The position numbers and the translations under genes are program-made. From a virus, in IMG/VR virus record IMGVR_UViG_3300030943_001853, positions 1 through 31,539 of that record: a stretch of DNA of 31,539 nucleotides; one strand, 5' to 3'. Of the stretch, positions 24,787 through 31,539 are shown in pieces. The notes under the pieces were generated by a model. The model searched no databases. It worked only from the letters and a program-made list of their open reading frames with translations, and was not told the DNA's origin. The first letter of the stretch is position 1. Each line of letters begins with the position of its first letter.

Positions 24787-25251
24787 TTAATTGTCTGATA
24801 TTTGACTAAATCCATTTGCTTTATTCCATGCCTTTGTACCTGCGTTTTCAGCCGATTTTTGGAAGTTTGCTTCCAGTCCCCTGAATTGCCTGATCAGTTC
24901 GTCGAGCTCATCAAGCGTGTATTTATTGAGCCGTTTCTTCAGGATGCTGCGGGCATCCATAAAAGCGTTAAACTTATCGAAGCTGGTGCCTTCATGTATG
25001 CCCGTGCGCTGTGCTATTGTCAGTACTATCGACCGTTTTTCCTTCAGCGCCATTTTTTCGGTTAATTGGCTCGATACATGTTCGATCTTATTTAATTGAT
25101 TGACAAGATCGGTGAGTTCAAGATCGTAAAGTTCGCGGGTGCTTTTTGTCCGGCCTTCGGTAAACGAATAGACGAGCTCGTGTCTGGAATCGGCGTCGAA
25201 TCCTTTTTTAGTGAGGATAGCCATCAGTTGGCGGTGTTTTGATTCGTTCAT
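24787..25251 (-). CDS. Mu gp16-like early protein
   Basis: A 154-residue protein starting MNESKHRQLMAILTKKGFD. The N-terminal region (KHRQLMAIL, DSRHELVYSFTEGRTKSTRE, ELTDLVNQLNKIE) has the layout of Mu gp16/DUF1018-like proteins; the C-terminal half is helical (DARSILKKRLNKYTLDELDE). The start at 25251 gives the ATGA overlap with the HAD gene stop. Function in the family is unknown, expected in the middle/early phase. I considered it as an Avd-type partner of the reverse transcriptase and found no support. Confidence 0.65.
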   Translation of the reverse strand: MNESKHRQLMAILTKKGFDADSRHELVYSFTEGRTKSTRELYDLELTDLVNQLNKIEHVSSQLTEKMALKEKRSIVLTIAQRTGIHEGTSFDKFNAFMDARSILKKRLNKYTLDELDELIRQFRGLEANFQKSAENAGTKAWNKANGFSQISDN

Positions 25252-25589
25252 ATCATTCCTCCTGCATACGCCTTCCAAAGTGGGAACTTGGCTTTATCAT
25301 CAATGTAATAATCGGCATATATCTTTCGGCAATTTGCTTTGTCTATAAAAGGAGCTTCGGGTAAATTGTCATTTATGGCATCAAACTCAATACCGTGGTT
25401 ACGGCAAAACTCAACGGCCTCGGTAAGGTATGCACGTTCTGGCAGGTCGGTTCTACATGTCCATAATATGAGTTTGTGACCGGCTTCCTGAAAGTGTGAA
25501 ATAGTATCAAAAGCCTGTGGTATCGGGTTCCCGATCTCAGGGAAACGATCTTCAGCTATCGTTCCATCAAAGTCGATTGCTAGTATCAT
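25248..25589 (-). CDS. HAD-superfamily phosphatase-like protein
   Basis: A 113-residue minimal HAD protein. Motif I is MILAIDFDGTIAED with nucleophile Asp6 and Asp8. LILWTCRTDLPER carries the motif II Thr. The acidic end is KIYADYYIDDKA. It resembles BT0820-type small hydrolases common in Bacteroidota and their phages. The substrate is unknown; nucleotide or 5'/3' phosphate processing of DNA or RNA is possible. Overlaps neighbours by 4 bases on both sides. Confidence 0.82.
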   Translation of the reverse strand: MILAIDFDGTIAEDRFPEIGNPIPQAFDTISHFQEAGHKLILWTCRTDLPERAYLTEAVEFCRNHGIEFDAINDNLPEAPFIDKANCRKIYADYYIDDKAKFPLWKAYAGGMI

Positions 25590-26290: not shown

Positions 26291-26593
26291 TTAAGTGAAT
26301 AAGTATCTTTCGTTTTCTACTATTATCGTTGTTGTGAAAGGAAACCCGTCTTCAGGAATCTGTTGTATCATTTCCCGCAAACCGCTGGACGAGGTGAATA
26401 CGATGTGATTTTCGTCCTTAAACGATATTTGAAGTTTTAAACATTTGCTTGATGAGCCTTTAAAGCATTTTGAATCTTCAATTTTAAAATGATGAACTAC
26501 GATTTCGCGGTTAAGTATTTTCGACATTTTTATTTTGTCGCCAACAAATGATTGTGATGTGATTTTTATATTGAATTGGTCAAAGCTTTTCAT
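26291..26593 (-). CDS. Small beta-rich protein coupled to reverse transcriptase
   Basis: A 100-residue protein whose start overlaps the reverse transcriptase stop (ATGA, 26590-26593), so the two are translationally coupled. Beta strands alternate with charged loops (VGDKIKMSKILNREIVVHHF, CLKLQISFKDENHIVFTSSS, PFTTTIIVENERYLFT), compatible with a small barrel. There is no Avd-like helical bundle. The coupling makes it a candidate DGR accessory factor; an ordinary phage role is equally possible. Family not assigned. Confidence 0.65.
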   Translation of the reverse strand: MKSFDQFNIKITSQSFVGDKIKMSKILNREIVVHHFKIEDSKCFKGSSSKCLKLQISFKDENHIVFTSSSGLREMIQQIPEDGFPFTTTIIVENERYLFT

Positions 26594-27540
26594 GCAAGCA
26601 ATTTCTTTAAGAGGTTTTTACTGTTACAATGCGCTGCCCAACCGTTATAACTGGCTATCGACTTTGCATTTCTATTTTTCTTCAGCATTCGTGCAAAATT
26701 CTGTTTAATTGATTTTCGTAAAAGTGTGTGCGTATGAAAAAAGACATAGCCAACGAAGTCAATACCTCTTTTTTCGACCGGAAATACCTGATAGTTTCCC
26801 TTAACCGTCAGTTTCAAATTATCCTGAAGGTATGTCCTGATTTCAGCAAGTAAGCCGTGCAAATAAGGCTTGGAGTCGGAAAGTACCACCAGATCATCAG
26901 CATACCGGAAGTAATATTTAACCTGCTTTTCTTCCTTCAGCCAGTGATCAAAATAAGTCAGATAGAAATTAGCCAGGTATTGTGATAGGTAGTTTCCTAT
27001 AGGCAACCCTGAAGTACTATCTATAATTTCATCCAGCAACCACAATAGGTCATTGTCTTTAATCTTCCGGCGCAGCAATTGTTTTAACGTGTCGTGATCA
27101 ACCGAAGGATAAAACTTCTTTACATCCAGCTTTAAGCAATACCGGGTATTTTCAACATCGTTTAAAGCCCGTTTAACTGCCCTTGCGGCGGCATGTATGC
27201 CTTTTCCTTTTATACATGAGTAAGTGTCTGTTGTGAAAGTTGAGACAAATACAGGCTCCAAAATATTCATCACCGCGTGATGGGTGATCCTGTCAGGGAA
27301 GTATGGCAGCCGGAAGATGATTCGTTCTTTTGGCTCGAAGATCGTAAACGTTGTGTATGGCGATGTCTTGTAAGTTTTGTTCACCAACATTTCGTGCAGT
27401 TGCTGAATGTTTGCTTCGCGGTTTTTGTCGTGTTGAATCACTCCAGGTTGTTTTGCTTTTCCTTTCCGCGCAACGGCATCAGCCATCTGAAGGTTTTCGA
27501 TGCTGCTGATTATATCGTACAAATTATTGATCCGTTTCAT
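26590..27540 (-). CDS. DGR reverse transcriptase
   Basis: A 316-residue reverse transcriptase of the diversity-generating retroelement type. Motif A has CLKLDVKKFYPSVD with Asp139. The DGR-typical motif GLPIGNYLSQ is at 178-187, where group II intron and retroviral enzymes have a QG form. The catalytic YADD is at 213-216 (YFRYADDLVVLSD) and RGIDFVGYVF at 258-267 is motif E-like. No maturase or endonuclease domain exists, and the length is near that of Bordetella phage DGR enzymes (about 330). With the TR transcript it makes adenine-mutated cDNA that replaces the VRs. It lies 97 bases downstream of the TR, in the same direction. Confidence 0.95.
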   Translation of the reverse strand: MKRINNLYDIISSIENLQMADAVARKGKAKQPGVIQHDKNREANIQQLHEMLVNKTYKTSPYTTFTIFEPKERIIFRLPYFPDRITHHAVMNILEPVFVSTFTTDTYSCIKGKGIHAAARAVKRALNDVENTRYCLKLDVKKFYPSVDHDTLKQLLRRKIKDNDLLWLLDEIIDSTSGLPIGNYLSQYLANFYLTYFDHWLKEEKQVKYYFRYADDLVVLSDSKPYLHGLLAEIRTYLQDNLKLTVKGNYQVFPVEKRGIDFVGYVFFHTHTLLRKSIKQNFARMLKKNRNAKSIASYNGWAAHCNSKNLLKKLLA

Positions 27541-27616: not shown

Positions 27617-27744
27617 AGGGTTTATGCTGCGAACTATGCAATTGCGCGAACTGACATTCGTATTCGTGTAGTTGTAATTCGAATTCGAATTCGAGAAACT
27701 GGAACCTGAAGACAAAACTGACAGCACTTGCAGCATACAACCTT
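27617..27744 (-). ncRNA. DGR template RNA cassette with closing stem
   Basis: The TR is enclosed by an inverted repeat: TATGCTGC (27623-27630) and GCAGCATA (27730-27737) are perfect complements. After one bulged base (27738), GGTT (27619-27622) pairs with AACC (27739-27742), with two further pairs outside, 14 pairs in all. The transcript (minus strand) would form a stem holding the TR as a loop. DGR template RNAs are known to need flanking structure. A 60-residue open frame across it is only the TR read as protein. Confidence 0.6.
27638..27718 (-). repeat. DGR template repeat (TR)
   Basis: An 81-bp template repeat. On the minus strand it reads as LSSGSSFSNSNSNYNYTNTN followed by VSSRNC; 21 adenines (T on plus) lie in 14 codons. 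Aligned to VR1 (offset 195), 16 of 21 adenine sites differ and all 60 other sites match. Aligned to VR2 (offset 616, over 79 bases), 15 of 21 differ and all other sites match. This adenine-only pattern is the DGR signature. Confidence 0.97.
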
Positions 27745-27751
27745 ATTTTAT

Positions 27752-28168
27752 TTATTCGGAATACAAGAAGTAATCGACGTACTCAGCCTCAAATTGCTCT
27801 GCGATGTACCTGGCCTTTTCCGATGAATCGGTGCAAAGGCGCGAACCGACAGCCGTACGCGTGCAGTCGTAAGTCGAACCCGAACCCGAGAAACCGGAAC
27901 CCGAAGACAAAACCCCAAACCAAGGGAAGTACTTATACTGATCATCATCACTCCAATCAGGCTTCCATCCATTATTAATCGCTTTGTAAATAATCATGAG
28001 CTTGTAAGCGGCTAATAACGGTTTTCTGAACTCTTCGGGGATCATTGACAGATCAGGAACGCTTGCCTGATCGATGTTCAACTGTGTGCAAGCATCTTCG
28101 AAAGTTTTGATAGTCCTGAAATCAAATTCGACGCTGTCTTTTTCTACATTTTTTGGTGTTGTAGTCAT
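27752..28168 (-). CDS. DGR target protein 1
   Basis: A 138-residue variable protein. The conserved N-terminal part has RTIKTFEDACTQLNI (19-33) and WKPDWSDDDQYKYFPWF (68-84). The variable repeat covers residues about 86-112 (LSSGSGFSGSGSTYDCTRTA, then VGSRLC). Unusually, about 26 conserved residues follow (SSEKARYIAEQFEAEYVDYF), so the VR is not at the extreme C-terminus. DGR target proteins commonly use a C-type-lectin fold for variability; the GSRLC end recalls that, but the fold is unproven. No signal peptide or transmembrane helix. It ends 34 bases before the TR. Ligand unknown. Confidence 0.9.
   Translation of the reverse strand: MTTTPKNVEKDSVEFDFRTIKTFEDACTQLNIDQASVPDLSMIPEEFRKPLLAAYKLMIIYKAINNGWKPDWSDDDQYKYFPWFGVLSSGSGFSGSGSTYDCTRTAVGSRLCTDSSEKARYIAEQFEAEYVDYFLYSE
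27820..27831. other. Short palindrome at the 3' border of VR1
   Basis: CCGATGAATCGG forms a 4-5-bp hairpin one base beyond the VR1 end (27833). In the Bordetella phage DGR a hairpin just downstream of VR promotes retrohoming. VR2 has only a weaker, wobble-containing counterpart at the same place (about 28240-28253). Confidence 0.5.
27833..27913 (-). repeat. DGR variable repeat 1 (VR1)
   Basis: An 81-bp copy of the TR, in frame in target 1. It differs at 16 positions, each a TR adenine. Changed plus-strand TR sites are 27642, 27643, 27652, 27657, 27658, 27663, 27664, 27669, 27673, 27678, 27684, 27685, 27690, 27691, 27700 and 27707. Confidence 0.97.
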
Positions 28169-28172
28169 GTTC

Positions 28173-28637
28173 TTAGTTGTTGATAGTTAAAAATTGTTTG
28201 TATAATTCATTGAATTGCTTTGCGGCATAGTTGCTCTTTTCCTCAGACTCGAAGCAAAGGCGCGAACCGACAGTCGTAAACGCGGAGTTGTAAACCGAAG
28301 ACGAATCCGAGAAACCGGAACCCGAAGACAAATTAAACCACGGCCAGTATTTGTACTGACTTTTATTGTCCCAGTCAGGAACCCACCCCTGATTAATTGC
28401 TGTCACAACAATTTTAAGTTTCTTATAGGCGGCTTCATCAGGTGTATCATTTTCCTGAATTACAGTTTCAGGATCAATGCCCAATTCCTCACAAGCATCT
28501 TCGAATGTTTTGATGTCATCAAAGTTTCGTTTCTTGAAAAATTCCTCTCCAACTGATTCTTCTAAAACTTTCCGACCCCATTCTGTTGATTCTATGTGGA
28601 GCCTTTTTACTTCTGATCTTTTAAGTTTTAATTTCAT
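28173..28637 (-). CDS. DGR target protein 2
   Basis: A 154-residue paralogue of target 1, directly upstream with 4 bases between. It has an extra basic N-terminus (MKLKLKRSEVKRLHIES), then the shared DIKTFEDACEELGI (41-54) and WVPDWDNKSQYKYWPWF (85-101). The VR covers about 102-128 (LSSGSGFSDSSSVYNSAFTT, then VGSRLC) and a conserved helix-like tail (EEKSNYAAKQFNELYKQF) follows. Tandem duplication lets one TR diversify two proteins. Soluble by appearance; cellular or virion location cannot be read from sequence. Confidence 0.9.
   Translation of the reverse strand: MKLKLKRSEVKRLHIESTEWGRKVLEESVGEEFFKKRNFDDIKTFEDACEELGIDPETVIQENDTPDEAAYKKLKIVVTAINQGWVPDWDNKSQYKYWPWFNLSSGSGFSDSSSVYNSAFTTVGSRLCFESEEKSNYAAKQFNELYKQFLTINN
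28254..28332 (-). repeat. DGR variable repeat 2 (VR2)
   Basis: A 79-bp copy of the TR, in frame in target 2. It differs at 15 positions, all TR adenines (plus-strand TR sites 27642, 27643, 27652, 27657, 27663, 27664, 27667, 27669, 27678, 27679, 27684, 27685, 27691, 27700, 27707). The changes mostly differ in base from those in VR1. Confidence 0.97.
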
Positions 28638-28659: not shown

Positions 28660-29058
28660 TTAATATTCGAATAGTTTGAGTTGTGATTTATCCTCTACCC
28701 TTTCAGGAGTGGGTGATTTGTCGTTTTTGTTCTTGTTTGATGAAACCGGAATGAAACATTTGAAATACCAGTCGTCATGCTCCCATGTATCAATTTCACC
28801 AATAAACTTGTCTCCAAAGTCTGGCGACCGTTTAATCTGGAAATTTGCACACTCATTTATCCTGGTAATTTCTTCGCTTATTTGCTGTCCCAGCCTGTCC
28901 GGATCAACAACTTTTAAAGTTTTCACGAAAGGGTTTAGATTATCTTCGGTGCCGCGTCGTGCGTGAACCGGCAATTTCATCGACCGTTTCTTTTTATAAT
29001 CGGGAATACCCATAGGTTTGAACCGATTAATGAGCTTGATTCTAATCGTTACTTCCAT
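28660..29058 (-). CDS. Unknown early protein upstream of DGR targets
   Basis: A 132-residue basic protein (MEVTIRIKLINRFKPMGIPD) with a central FGDKFIGEIDTWEHDDWYFK and a disordered tail (SNKNKNDKSPTPERVEDKSQ). 22 bases before the DGR target 2 start, in the same direction, and probably on one transcript. Family not recognised. Confidence 0.6.
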   Translation of the reverse strand: MEVTIRIKLINRFKPMGIPDYKKKRSMKLPVHARRGTEDNLNPFVKTLKVVDPDRLGQQISEEITRINECANFQIKRSPDFGDKFIGEIDTWEHDDWYFKCFIPVSSNKNKNDKSPTPERVEDKSQLKLFEY

Positions 29059-29353
29059 TTGAATCTGTTATTTCTGGACCAGCATAAAAATCACCGTGAA
29101 GCTTACATTCTTTGATGAATATCACCTCTTTGGTAATCTTTGGTTCTTTGGTTGAATCAAACGATTTAATAATACGTTCTATGGCTTGTTCCTTTGCTTG
29201 GGAAGGATTTCCGGCAAAAGACATTCCTCTATAAGTTACGCTTGAGTATCGTACCGTTGCTGTCGGTTTTGGTTTAACCGTGAGCGTAATAGCATAAGGT
29301 TTAATTTCGGCTTTTTTGCTCATCATCGTCGGTTTCTTCGGTTTCGTCATCAC
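29042..29353 (-). CDS. Unknown early protein
   Basis: A 103-residue protein with a KP-rich N-terminus (KPKKPTMMSKKAEIKPYAIT) and a compact middle (ATVRYSSVTYRGMSFAGNPS). It overlaps the DUF4494 gene by 53 bases if the first ATG is used; an internal ATG pair (residues 10-11) gives less overlap. No family recognised. Confidence 0.55.
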   Translation of the reverse strand: MMTKPKKPTMMSKKAEIKPYAITLTVKPKPTATVRYSSVTYRGMSFAGNPSQAKEQAIERIIKSFDSTKEPKITKEVIFIKECKLHGDFYAGPEITDSNGSND

Positions 29354-29840
29354 TCTCAGTATTTGGCCTTGCTATAGGCTTCAAATTGGATGGAATCTGT
29401 TTGTTTAGATCATCCTCGAAGTATGGAAAAACATCGACAATGCTGCTTAGCGTAATGCTTGTCACTTGGTATGGAACCAGTATATAAGCAAGTCCTTCCT
29501 CAAGACGTTGGAGAGCCTGTTTAATATCATCGGCGGCAACCAGGAAGTATTGATTGATTTTTTTCTCTTTGCCAGCTTTTTCGTCAATGGTCACGATGGC
29601 AATCTTTGCTTTGTACCACCATTCACCAGTTTCGTGCGGGAAAATTTCAATGATGTTCGATTGCGAAATCTTCTTGACCACAAATTCGCCCCTAACCATT
29701 GTGCTAACCTGCTGAATTGCCCGTGCTTCTGCATCGGTATAAGTAACGGCATCCAACAAATAAACCTCACTCACTTTTCGTTCCCGGCCATCATCATCAA
29801 TCTTGAGATAGCCAACTTTACATTCAAACCAATTTTGCAT
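29301..29840 (-). CDS. DUF4494 protein
   Basis: A 179-residue DUF4494 protein, a common Bacteroidota phage/element family. Family features: MQNWFECKVGYLKIDDDGRE start, YLLDAVTYTDAEARAIQQ, GEWWYKAKIAIVTIDEKAGK and IVDVFPYFED, with an acidic tail. The start at 29840 is chosen because it matches the family's usual N-terminus. The longer frame upstream (to 29963) runs through the tRNA-like element and is unlikely to be translated. Function unknown. Confidence 0.85.
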   Translation of the reverse strand: MQNWFECKVGYLKIDDDGRERKVSEVYLLDAVTYTDAEARAIQQVSTMVRGEFVVKKISQSNIIEIFPHETGEWWYKAKIAIVTIDEKAGKEKKINQYFLVAADDIKQALQRLEEGLAYILVPYQVTSITLSSIVDVFPYFEDDLNKQIPSNLKPIARPNTESDDETEETDDDEQKSRN

Positions 29841-29880
29841 TTTTCTAAATTTTAAGTTGTTGATGACATTTTTGTCATTG

Positions 29881-29969
29881 AGCCGAATAGGAGAATCGAA
29901 CTCCCGCCTCTCAGCCACTCCGGGAAAACACTCCGGCGGCCTAACGATCTGCCACTGATCCAATCCGGC
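29881..29969 (-). tRNA. tRNA-like element with abnormal anticodon arm
   Basis: Minus strand, 89 bases. A 7-bp acceptor GCCGGAT/ATTCGGC (29969-29963 with 29888-29882; one G-T), linker TG, D arm GATC-AGTGGCA-GATC and a T arm GGGAG-TTCGATT-CTCCT are all tRNA-like, with discriminator T. The anticodon arm is not standard. About 34 bases form a longer helix (GGCCGC with GTGGCT) topped by a CGG/CCG hairpin with loop AGTGTTTTC, with no normal 7-base anticodon loop. Reading the loop as GTGTTTT would give GTT (Asn) with a mismatched stem pair. Could be a degenerate tRNA, a split or inserted tRNA, or a tRNA mimic. Confidence 0.5.
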
Positions 29970-30037
29970 AAATTTGCCCGTCTTTCCGGGCTGTCTAAAA
30001 TGAATCTGGTTTCAATCAATCACGAAAAAACCTTTTG

Positions 30038-30730
30038 CTATTTGAAAATTTCAAAATTCGGTTCAAAGCCTTCAGGAAAATCGACCGATGTAATTGAAAG
30101 CTGTACCGATTGCTTTTTGCCTTGACCATCGAGCGTTTCGGCTTCGATAAAAATGGCCGAACGAACGGGTTTGTAACTCGCGCGGATGATCTCTACACCT
30201 TTGTAAAACTCATCGTTCTTTACTTTATCGGCCAGGTTCTGAAGGTCTAAAACCCGGTTGGGTTTCAAGTTGCCCTTTGCATCCTTTTTTAGTAGGTTGT
30301 TAATCATGTCAACCAATTGCGCGCTGTTTTGGTCAACCGCAAGGCCGGTAATGTATTCGCGAATGATCGAAATTCCCGCATCCAGGGTGTCATCAAATTT
30401 GTCGATCACACGCCACCCGATTGTGATGTTGTTTCCATCCTCGTCGGAAAACGTATGGCTCTGCTGACCCGACTTGATGCCGTATAGTTCCTGTTTCAGG
30501 CTGATGATAGCGGCAAACGAGCCGTAAACGTTGGCTTTGGCAAGGCTTAACATGTTTGATAAGCTTTGAAGTTCAATAATCTGTTCGCGAACGGTTTGGT
30601 TGACCAGCGATTTGTAGCTCGCACGCTCTGAGTTCAGTTTGTTTTGTTCGGCCAGTTTCTTGGCTGCAATTTTTTGCTCAAGGGCTTCTAGTTGCTCCGG
30701 TGATAAGTCTTCAATTTCGATGTCTTTCAT
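30038..30730 (-). CDS. DUF3164-like Mu early protein
   Basis: A 230-residue protein with an N-terminal coiled coil (EDLSPEQLEALEQKIAAKKL) and a C-terminal domain resembling DUF3164 of Mu-like phages: GWRVIDKFDDTLDAGISIIR, then LVDMINNLLKKDAKGNLKPN with NRVLDLQNLADKVK. The family occurs in the early region of Mu-like phages near the transposition genes; function unknown. It overlaps the following reading frame by 4 bases at 30727-30730. Confidence 0.75.
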   Translation of the reverse strand: MKDIEIEDLSPEQLEALEQKIAAKKLAEQNKLNSERASYKSLVNQTVREQIIELQSLSNMLSLAKANVYGSFAAIISLKQELYGIKSGQQSHTFSDEDGNNITIGWRVIDKFDDTLDAGISIIREYITGLAVDQNSAQLVDMINNLLKKDAKGNLKPNRVLDLQNLADKVKNDEFYKGVEIIRASYKPVRSAIFIEAETLDGQGKKQSVQLSITSVDFPEGFEPNFEIFK

Positions 30731-30969
30731 TTTTTGTTATTTTTAATAATGTTGATAATTGATTCATCTATAAGTTTTTCAAAAAATTCTTTGGCTGGCT
30801 TTTTCGAGCCGTCGGAGAGTACCACGTGTAAACGGGAAACTGTGACCGGCTCGCATCGGTTGTGGTATTCACTTCGCCACTCTGTCACATCAGCCATTTG
30901 GGTTTCATATCCAACTTCTTTAAGTAAATCAGCTAATTGTCCGTCGGTAAGGTGTAGTTGAAGTATCAT
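30727..30969 (-). CDS. Small unknown early protein
   Basis: An 80-residue protein (MILQLHLTDGQLADLLKEVG, then EPVTVSRLHVVLSDGSKKPA) with a mixed alpha/beta look. It overlaps both neighbours by 4 bases, so it is part of a tightly coupled early operon. No family recognised. Confidence 0.6.
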   Translation of the reverse strand: MILQLHLTDGQLADLLKEVGYETQMADVTEWRSEYHNRCEPVTVSRLHVVLSDGSKKPAKEFFEKLIDESIINIIKNNKK

Positions 30970-31223
30970 ACTCGTTGTGTTTTTGGAATTGAAAGCTCCA
31001 TTTCACACCTGTATGTATCATCAAATTTTCCATTTAACCGGTTTTCAATTACTTCCATGTGGTAACTTAAAATGTTTATTTCCCTTGCCGTTTCAGCAGA
31101 ATAATCGCCTGATAGTTGTTTTGATCTCAGTACTTTCAACTTATCAGTACACTTGCTGAGTTCTGTGTTTAACTCCGATTGACATTCCCGTTTGCTTTTT
31201 GCTGATTTTTTGGTGTTTCTCAT
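30966..31223 (-). CDS. Small helical early protein
   Basis: An 85-residue basic, helical protein (MRNTKKSAKSKRECQSELNT, then CTDKLKVLRSKQLSGDYSAE). The start at 31223 is chosen over 31241 because it shortens the overlap with the upstream gene (to 80 bases). No family recognised. An Avd-like four-helix role was considered; it is too short and lies 3.4 kb from the reverse transcriptase. Confidence 0.5.
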   Translation of the reverse strand: MRNTKKSAKSKRECQSELNTELSKCTDKLKVLRSKQLSGDYSAETAREINILSYHMEVIENRLNGKFDDTYRCEMELSIPKTQRV

Positions 31224-31539
31224 TTGCAAATATTTTTTCAAGTGTGCTTTGTGGTATAAGGCTGGTATTGAACATTAATCGGATGTATATTTCATCGTTA
31301 CTTTCATTGCTGAAGTTGTAGCATACCCTCCATAGTTGGGTACTCCACCAGCTCCAGAAATAGGGTGATGCTAATATGCTCCTGAAGGTTTCTGTTGGCG
31401 ATTGTTTCAGTGTAATACCACTCATAAGCTCACCAAATTGCGCCTTGAATACAGAGTACCGTGTGATCCGGTGTTGTAGCTGGTCGAGGTAATCAGCCCC
31501 GGAGTCGAAAAACAATGACCATACATCACGTTCTTTCAT
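31144..31539 (-). CDS. Unknown early protein, possibly truncated at window edge
   Basis: A 131-residue frame whose ATG is exactly at the last base, so the true start may lie outside. Trp/Phe-rich core (ILASPYFWSWWSTQLWRVCY, then NESNDEIYIRLMFNTS) is probably folded. In Mu-like phages of this group the genes upstream would be the transposition proteins. Family not recognised. Confidence 0.55.
   Translation of the reverse strand: MKERDVWSLFFDSGADYLDQLQHRITRYSVFKAQFGELMSGITLKQSPTETFRSILASPYFWSWWSTQLWRVCYNFSNESNDEIYIRLMFNTSLIPQSTLEKIFANEKHQKISKKQTGMSIGVKHRTQQVY

Follow-up and report, generated by a model that had tools for sequence, protein, structure and literature searches.

A diversity-generating retroelement with two small paralogous targets encoded away from the tail genes in a phage of Bacteroidetes

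Diversity-generating retroelements (DGRs) reverse transcribe the RNA of a template repeat (TR) with errors at adenines, and the resulting cDNA overwrites a variable region (VR) in a target gene; in Mtd of Bordetella phage BPP-1, the VR lies at the C terminus. Phage DGRs are understood mainly as changers of receptor binding. The DNA analysed here (the window), a virus record of 31,539 bases from a phage of Bacteroidetes bacteria, raises the question of what a DGR would achieve by rewriting two small proteins encoded away from the tail genes. The window encodes terminase, portal, sheath, tape-measure and tail-fibre proteins, and we therefore assign it to a contractile-tailed phage.

One template repeat and two tandem targets

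A sequence-only reading of the window had proposed two tandem DGR targets of 138 and 154 residues. Both ORFs are present on the minus strand. Target 2 (T2, 154 aa, 28173–28637) starts 22 nt past the upstream gene and comprises an N-terminal helical extension, a core, the VR and C-terminal helices; target 1 (T1, 138 aa, 27752–28168) begins 4 nt past T2. TR alignment and scanning placed the VRs at 28253–28334 (T2) and 27832–27913 (T1), both on the minus strand, while the TR itself (about 27637–27718, minus strand) sits between T1 and the reverse transcriptase (RT) gene. The latter (26590–27540, minus strand) encodes a DGR RT of 316 aa (RVT_1, E = 5.1e-19; PHROG 1423 "Reverse transcriptase", E = 1.5e-128) and is accompanied by the gene of an RT-linked 100-aa protein (26291–26593, minus strand), a candidate accessory factor whose family members are encoded downstream of the RT gene in most loci.

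Under symmetric match/mismatch scoring, the VR of T2 differs from the TR at 15 positions over 79 nt and that of T1 at 16 over 82 nt, every one of them a TR adenine. With adenines at ~27% of the TR positions in the window, the chance of obtaining 31/31 by random placement is ~1e-17 by our own arithmetic. The window thus holds an RT gene beside the repeats and TR/VR differences confined to TR adenines (31/31), and it is as good as certain that T1 and T2 are targets diversified by one DGR. Scanning with the TR at an identity of at least 75% over non-A positions revealed just the TR and these two VRs in the window and in L003, a near-copy of it, with no third VR; the tail fibre (4–2100), which matches tail-fibre PHROGs, lacks a VR at the same threshold, as the sequence-only reading had stated. 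That reading was also borne out on two further points: no hydrophobic N-terminal segment or membrane anchor is apparent by eye in T1 or T2, and about 25–26 residues, predicted to be helical, remain after each VR, which is therefore internal.

L003 matches the window identically over 9704 nt at one end and then runs ~4.4 kb beyond it. On the strand of the targets, this extension carries genes for a MuA-like transposase (weak rve match), a MuB-like DNA transposition protein (ATPase) and a Sak4-like ATPase, and we therefore read the phage as Mu-like, with the targets on its transposition side. The genes upstream of T2 (28660–31539, minus strand; DUF4494, DUF3164 and others) share the strand of the targets and run on in L003 into these three genes. 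According to the window ORFs, the head genes (~17–22.8 kb) lie on the opposite strand, between the targets and the tail genes.

A small HAD-like protein of PHROG 1238 (labelled phosphoheptose isomerase) is encoded in the same gene block as the targets (25248–25589) and recurs in several relatives. Rfam and tRNA scans of the window gave no hits, and a Bacteroidetes-type promoter pattern was uninformative, with 1 match in the window against 2.07 expected and none upstream of the targets.

Recurrence, duplication and activity of the cassette

The search for homologues and their genomic context that the sequence-only reading had suggested placed both targets in the family of PHROG 11581 and showed that the cassette recurs. 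A profile scan of viral contigs gave 255 relatives, and the analysis continued with the best 80 loci; 79 of these were reduced to 63 non-redundant loci by removing identical target cores. Among these 63 loci from the best 80 of 255 relatives, the gene order T2, T1, TR, RT recurs, with target genes in all 63, an RT in 53 (median 1.1 kb past the start of the first target) and the 100-aa protein in 49; target copies number two in 53 loci, one in six and three in four. Since loci were cut at about 8 kb, a missing marker gene means little. Symmetric scoring of 104 target–template pairs placed 1508 of 1547 mismatches at adenines, which make up 2210 of the 8335 aligned positions; L044, with a degenerate TR, has 4/10 mismatches at A. 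When all variable adenine columns are taken together, the VRs carry A in 39%, G in 31%, T in 20% and C in 10% of cases. Five flanking template adenines face one fixed other VR base: G at -54 (53/53), -48 (71/72), 0 (101/101) and +7 (93/93), and T at +11 (82/82). Because three of them encode the near-invariant GSRLC motif, these sites are either not overwritten or strongly selected.

The position of the cassette varies. The sequence-only reading had put the targets in an early region, which holds in the lineage of the window, given its MuA-, MuB- and Sak4-like genes on the same strand, and fails as a statement about every relative; "early" is itself an inference from position within that lineage. 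Among the 63 loci (best 80 of 255 relatives), MuA- or MuB-like genes lie upstream on the strand of the targets in 16, and sigma-factor or primase genes lie near others. TerS is found within 1 kb upstream of T2 in 11/63, with TerL then within 5 kb in 9/63, a place compatible with late expression. These TerS and MuA/MuB counts were made by reading; a broader "Ter" group of 21 includes loci with only a head protease.

In six loci (L007, L033, L039, L070, L077 and L085) both target ORFs are intact and no RT is adjacent, although the TR is still present in L007, L033 and L077; the pair seems to be useful without ongoing diversification there, or the RT acts from elsewhere. Separately, a target at L062:6762–7250 has a template-like variable stretch (NYDNTNTNVSSHLC) and no RT nearby, as if a target had been joined to a template copy.

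A tree was built from the 46 T1/T2 pairs that were amenable to automatic cutting of the segments, after excision of the variable part. One branch (support 95/97, from a bootstrap that had not settled) divides 45 of the 46 T1 sequences from all 46 T2 sequences and the remaining T1. Most simply, this would mean that T1 and T2 derive from one old duplication and have kept their order since. Bacterial genomes yielded 11 further loci, in Prolixibacteraceae, a Bacteroidetes MAG, Flavobacterium, Yeosuana and Sphingobacterium. Both domains are joined in one ORF in all three Sphingobacterium loci. In the Sphingobacterium griseoflavum fusion, each domain carries a VR of one and the same TR, with 15/15 and 16/16 mismatches at A, and the surrounding block contains repressor, Erf, exonuclease VIII, PAPS reductase and methyltransferase genes; no RT was found in the other two Sphingobacterium loci.

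Evidence for activity and INDEPENDENCE came from near-identical contigs. L034 and L038 are identical over ~6.0 kb bar 13 differences, all within the T2 VR, while L037 and L038 are identical over 4.7 kb bar 12 differences, all within the T1 VR; L034 and L037 differ at 25 positions across both VRs and at none outside the targets. L024 and L029 show 9 differences in a T2 VR and 12 elsewhere. Altogether, 4 of the 18 contig pairs compared have VR differences and 14 have identical targets. Because near-identical contigs differ inside one or the other VR, the DGR is active in these relatives, with separate events rewriting T1 and T2. The sequence-only reading was thus right that one TR serves two paralogues; its proposal that both are diversified together is rejected, as relatives show single-target events. 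VR change with constant TR and flanks was seen in the relatives L034, L037 and L038; the near-copy L003 is identical to the window. L034, L037 and L038 also carry a third tandem target copy, identical in the compared contigs despite their differing T1 and T2.

The target family and its tail-side counterparts

Both proteins match the PHROG 11581 profile over the core (T1, E = 5.2e-28; T2, E = 9.5e-31), as do BI-TP1 gp84, Versailles WAK79127.1, a cr60_1 protein and the Sphingobacterium fusion. The family is annotated as of unknown function in PHROGs, and the entry as printed is silent on DGRs. Roux et al. 2021 (PMC8144416) describe more than 92% of DGR targets as falling into 24 clusters, most of which show no known domain beyond the VR, as far as the consulted part of that report goes; T1 and T2 may be among these clusters.

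Structure prediction of both targets, another suggested check, gave AF2 models with a pLDDT of 87.2 and pTM of 0.80 for T2 and of 80.9 and 0.73 for T1, the variable part being of low confidence (means of 71, 59 and 76 for ten-residue blocks from residue 101 of T2). In the T2 model, N-terminal helices lead to a predicted hairpin (strands 96–102 and 108–115), followed by the conserved GSRLC and a pair of helices. By column entropy, variability is high at 111, 113, 115, 117, 118, 120 and 122 and lower at 112, 114, 116, 119 and 121, an alternation as expected if one face of the strand pair varied. Across 106 sequences, the SRLC motif is invariant or nearly so.

Comparison with known proteins identified no named relative. 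Searching the PDB with both AF2 models gave no match at Z of 2 or more, and none for T2 at E = 0.001; good matches in BFVD were uncharacterised viral proteins; and the 106-row profile returned three chance-level hits among sequences of solved structures (best E = 0.31). T1 and T2 have no match in Pfam, neither to a recognisable virion domain nor to a lectin, none in PADLOC-DB, defence or anti-defence, and nothing in NCBIfam beyond weak T2 hits far under the cut-offs. The C-type lectin fold has no Pfam or PDB match here, yet the VR segment is common with tail-side targets of relatives and the model is weak in just that part. An extreme C-terminal VR, as in C-type lectin DGR variable proteins, is absent, residues predicted to be helical following the VR in T1 and T2.

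To locate all VRs served by each template, 23 viral records were fetched and the 21 with a called TR were scanned, leaving out G009 and G025 (no RT or called TR). The scan detects VRs at least 78% alike at non-adenine sites (75% in the window), and as a control it recovered both the tail-gene and the T-family VRs of BI-TP1. In all 21 records, whether or not they include tail genes, VRs were found only in T-family genes, two in each; G016 has an additional third T-family VR about 5 kb away.

Three Bacteroides phage isolates combine both kinds of target. BI-TP1 has one TR adjacent to the RT, and it matches the tail gene gp12 (20/22 mismatches at A) and the T-family gene gp84 (14/14), under A-lenient scoring only. 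With symmetric scoring, the TR of Versailles matches a tail protein (12/13) and a T-family gene (15/16), and that of BT-TP2 matches the large tail-side gp44 (11/11) and an unannotated T-family gene (10/10). Although the template is common with a tail-side protein, the T-family gene lies away from the tail genes in all three: in BI-TP1 among methyltransferase-annotated genes, a Holliday junction resolvase and a tRNA ligase, in Versailles beside NinB, a replisome organiser and a helicase loader, and in BT-TP2 directly after two regulators. In the deposited BT-TP2 record, this unannotated T-family gene is split between the two ends: the record opens inside it and stops where its VR starts (L161 1–700, L001 12239–12258).

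In relatives, the T1/T2-family VR segment has a match in a tail-protein PHROG, in the VR segment at its C-terminal end. Versailles WAK79127.1 (L013:8875–9456) is annotated "tail protein", and its match to tail PHROG 5302 spans just residues 114–161, the VR-containing end; the label is probably due only to this common segment. Because the match is limited to the VR end and the gene adjoins NinB and replication genes, we rejected the label as evidence of a tail location.

The 100-aa protein family resembles the C-terminal domain of the BT-TP2 RT (L001 7993–9288) and BI-TP1 gp9 (L091 4713–5297), with HMM E-values of 1.8e-8 and 8.6e-10 in a four-sequence search that left the Versailles RT unmatched. 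In BI-TP1, RT-like sequence is spread over gp11 and gp9. By its sequence relationships, the 100-aa protein is a candidate RT partner distinct from Avd.

A diversified pair inside the cell or on the virion

We propose, with a probability of about 0.6, that T1 and T2 form a paired, diversified binding module that acts in the host cell, probably in phage–host conflict, a function deduced from sequence and genomic context. TR RNA would be reverse-transcribed with adenine errors, and the cDNA would independently overwrite either VR, that of T1 or that of T2, so that alternating residues of the predicted beta-hairpin, held by a conserved helical scaffold, are redesigned. Made on the early side, the two proteins would remain intracellular and act together, as their fusion in Sphingobacterium suggests, binding some changing factor of the host or of a rival phage, most probably a defence component. 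The phage would thereby carry a self-randomising binding module for intracellular conflict, not adsorption. This explanation brings together the adenine bias, the activity and independence of the targets, VRs found only in T-family genes, the single T1/T2 split, the two-VR fusion and the entropy pattern. An intracellular role is further favoured by T genes beside transposition, recombination, replication, repressor or methyltransferase genes in the Mu-like phages, Versailles, BI-TP1, BT-TP2 and Sphingobacterium; TerS/TerL neighbours in some loci, a VR segment like that of a tail-protein PHROG, the low-confidence variable part and the lack of a defence match speak against it.

More tentatively, T1 and T2 could be likened to a two-chain, antibody-like system, in which two ancient paralogous hypervariable domains, independently diversified from one template, pair (fused in some prophages) into a combined randomised surface that counters, within the host cell, defence proteins or factors of rival phages, as a module of unrelated temperate Bacteroidetes phages.

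The chief rival, which we regard as rather doubtful, makes T1 and T2 components of the virion whose genes lie outside the tail module, such as head decoration, minor tail or host-adhesion proteins; they would diversify adsorption or environment binding as classical phage DGRs do. Known phage DGR targets are mainly tail proteins, by the accounts in PMC8144416 and PMC10743442 as far as consulted, the VR segment is common to the tail-side targets of BI-TP1, Versailles and BT-TP2, and the cassette adjoins TerS/TerL in some phages. Yet both proteins are small and devoid of recognisable virion domains, opposite-strand head genes part them from the tail genes in the window, and in the isolates that do have a tail target the T gene stands far from the tail genes, in a repressor, recombination or methyltransferase region. 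The sequence-only reading had left open whether the targets are intracellular effectors or virion proteins; location, homologues and absent tail VRs favour the former, while sequence cannot separate the two.

It is unlikely that the pair instead works in lysogeny, as a prophage-expressed exclusion or immunity protein, itself diversified, that recognises components of incoming phages. The setting is temperate, with transposase, integrase or repressor genes in many loci, the BT-TP2 T gene follows its two regulators directly, and a review of DGRs in prokaryotic immunity exists (PMC10053308); in the Mu-like group, however, the genes lie inside a transposition-side block expected to be repressed in lysogeny, and a membrane anchor is not apparent by eye. 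That the DGR is a decaying relic whose targets are no longer under selection, as the six RT-less loci and the degenerate TR of L044 might suggest, is highly improbable: fresh VR-only differences between otherwise identical contigs contradict it for the lineage, the SRLC motif is at or near invariance across 106 sequences, and the paired ORFs are intact even where the RT is gone.

The anatomy resembles that of described phage DGRs, and the targets differ. As in BPP-1, RT, TR and adenine-directed VR change follow the plan of mutagenic retrohoming set out in the consulted part of PMC6199706, where the BPP-1 target is a tail-fibre C-type lectin; here, the targets are small proteins with helices after the VR, no tail VR was found, and the RT is followed by a 100-aa candidate partner instead of an identified Avd. 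Hankyphage, in the same source, is likewise a transposable Mu-like Bacteroides phage with a DGR, but the DGR there targets the C-terminal end of a large ORF (residues 2188–2225, a C-type lectin domain) instead of a small T-family pair. One DGR serving two target genes is described for the tentaclins nd4/nd12 (PMC10743442) and Faecalibacterium phages (PMC11792537); in the parts of these reports consulted, however, the targets have C-type lectin or DUF6273 domains, several of them look like receptor-binding or decoration proteins, and none is described as a conserved paralogous pair on the early side.

The closest precedent in the open-licence PMC literature, so far as its consulted text extends, is the one phage DGR target argued to be "non-structural", in the Bacteroides phage Quimbyvirus (Benler et al. 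2021, PMC8008677), where a second target is set apart from the structural genes and has methyltransferases and a tRNA ligase as neighbours; no paired cassette is described in that literature. In the excerpts on Quimbyvirus, its RT lies in overlapping frames and both targets are called C-type lectin proteins. BI-TP1 gp84, a T1/T2 homologue, has a similar neighbourhood and a TR common with a tail gene. From context and homology, and knowing Quimbyvirus from its description, we infer that gp84 is the counterpart of its second target and that T1 and T2 belong to the same protein family. Unlike the DGR of the window, with two tandem paralogues beside the RT and no tail target found, that of Quimbyvirus also diversifies a structural-module gene. 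The present analysis extends this single non-structural target to a protein family in Mu-like, integrase-type and Bacteroides gut phages, and the paired, sometimes fused arrangement is its most novel part. A broad lineage that rewrites a conserved pair of small proteins, with no tail target detected, would imply that selection also favours continuous diversification once the phage has entered the cell. The binding partner of a non-tail DGR target is testable in the cultured phages BI-TP1, BT-TP2 and Versailles, and in the isolates Sphingobacterium griseoflavum, Flavobacterium sp. AED and Yeosuana marina.

As a minor observation, PAPS reductase and DNA methyltransferase genes lie near the T gene in both a Sphingobacterium locus (L158 14860–17524) and BI-TP1 (L002 7488–9201).
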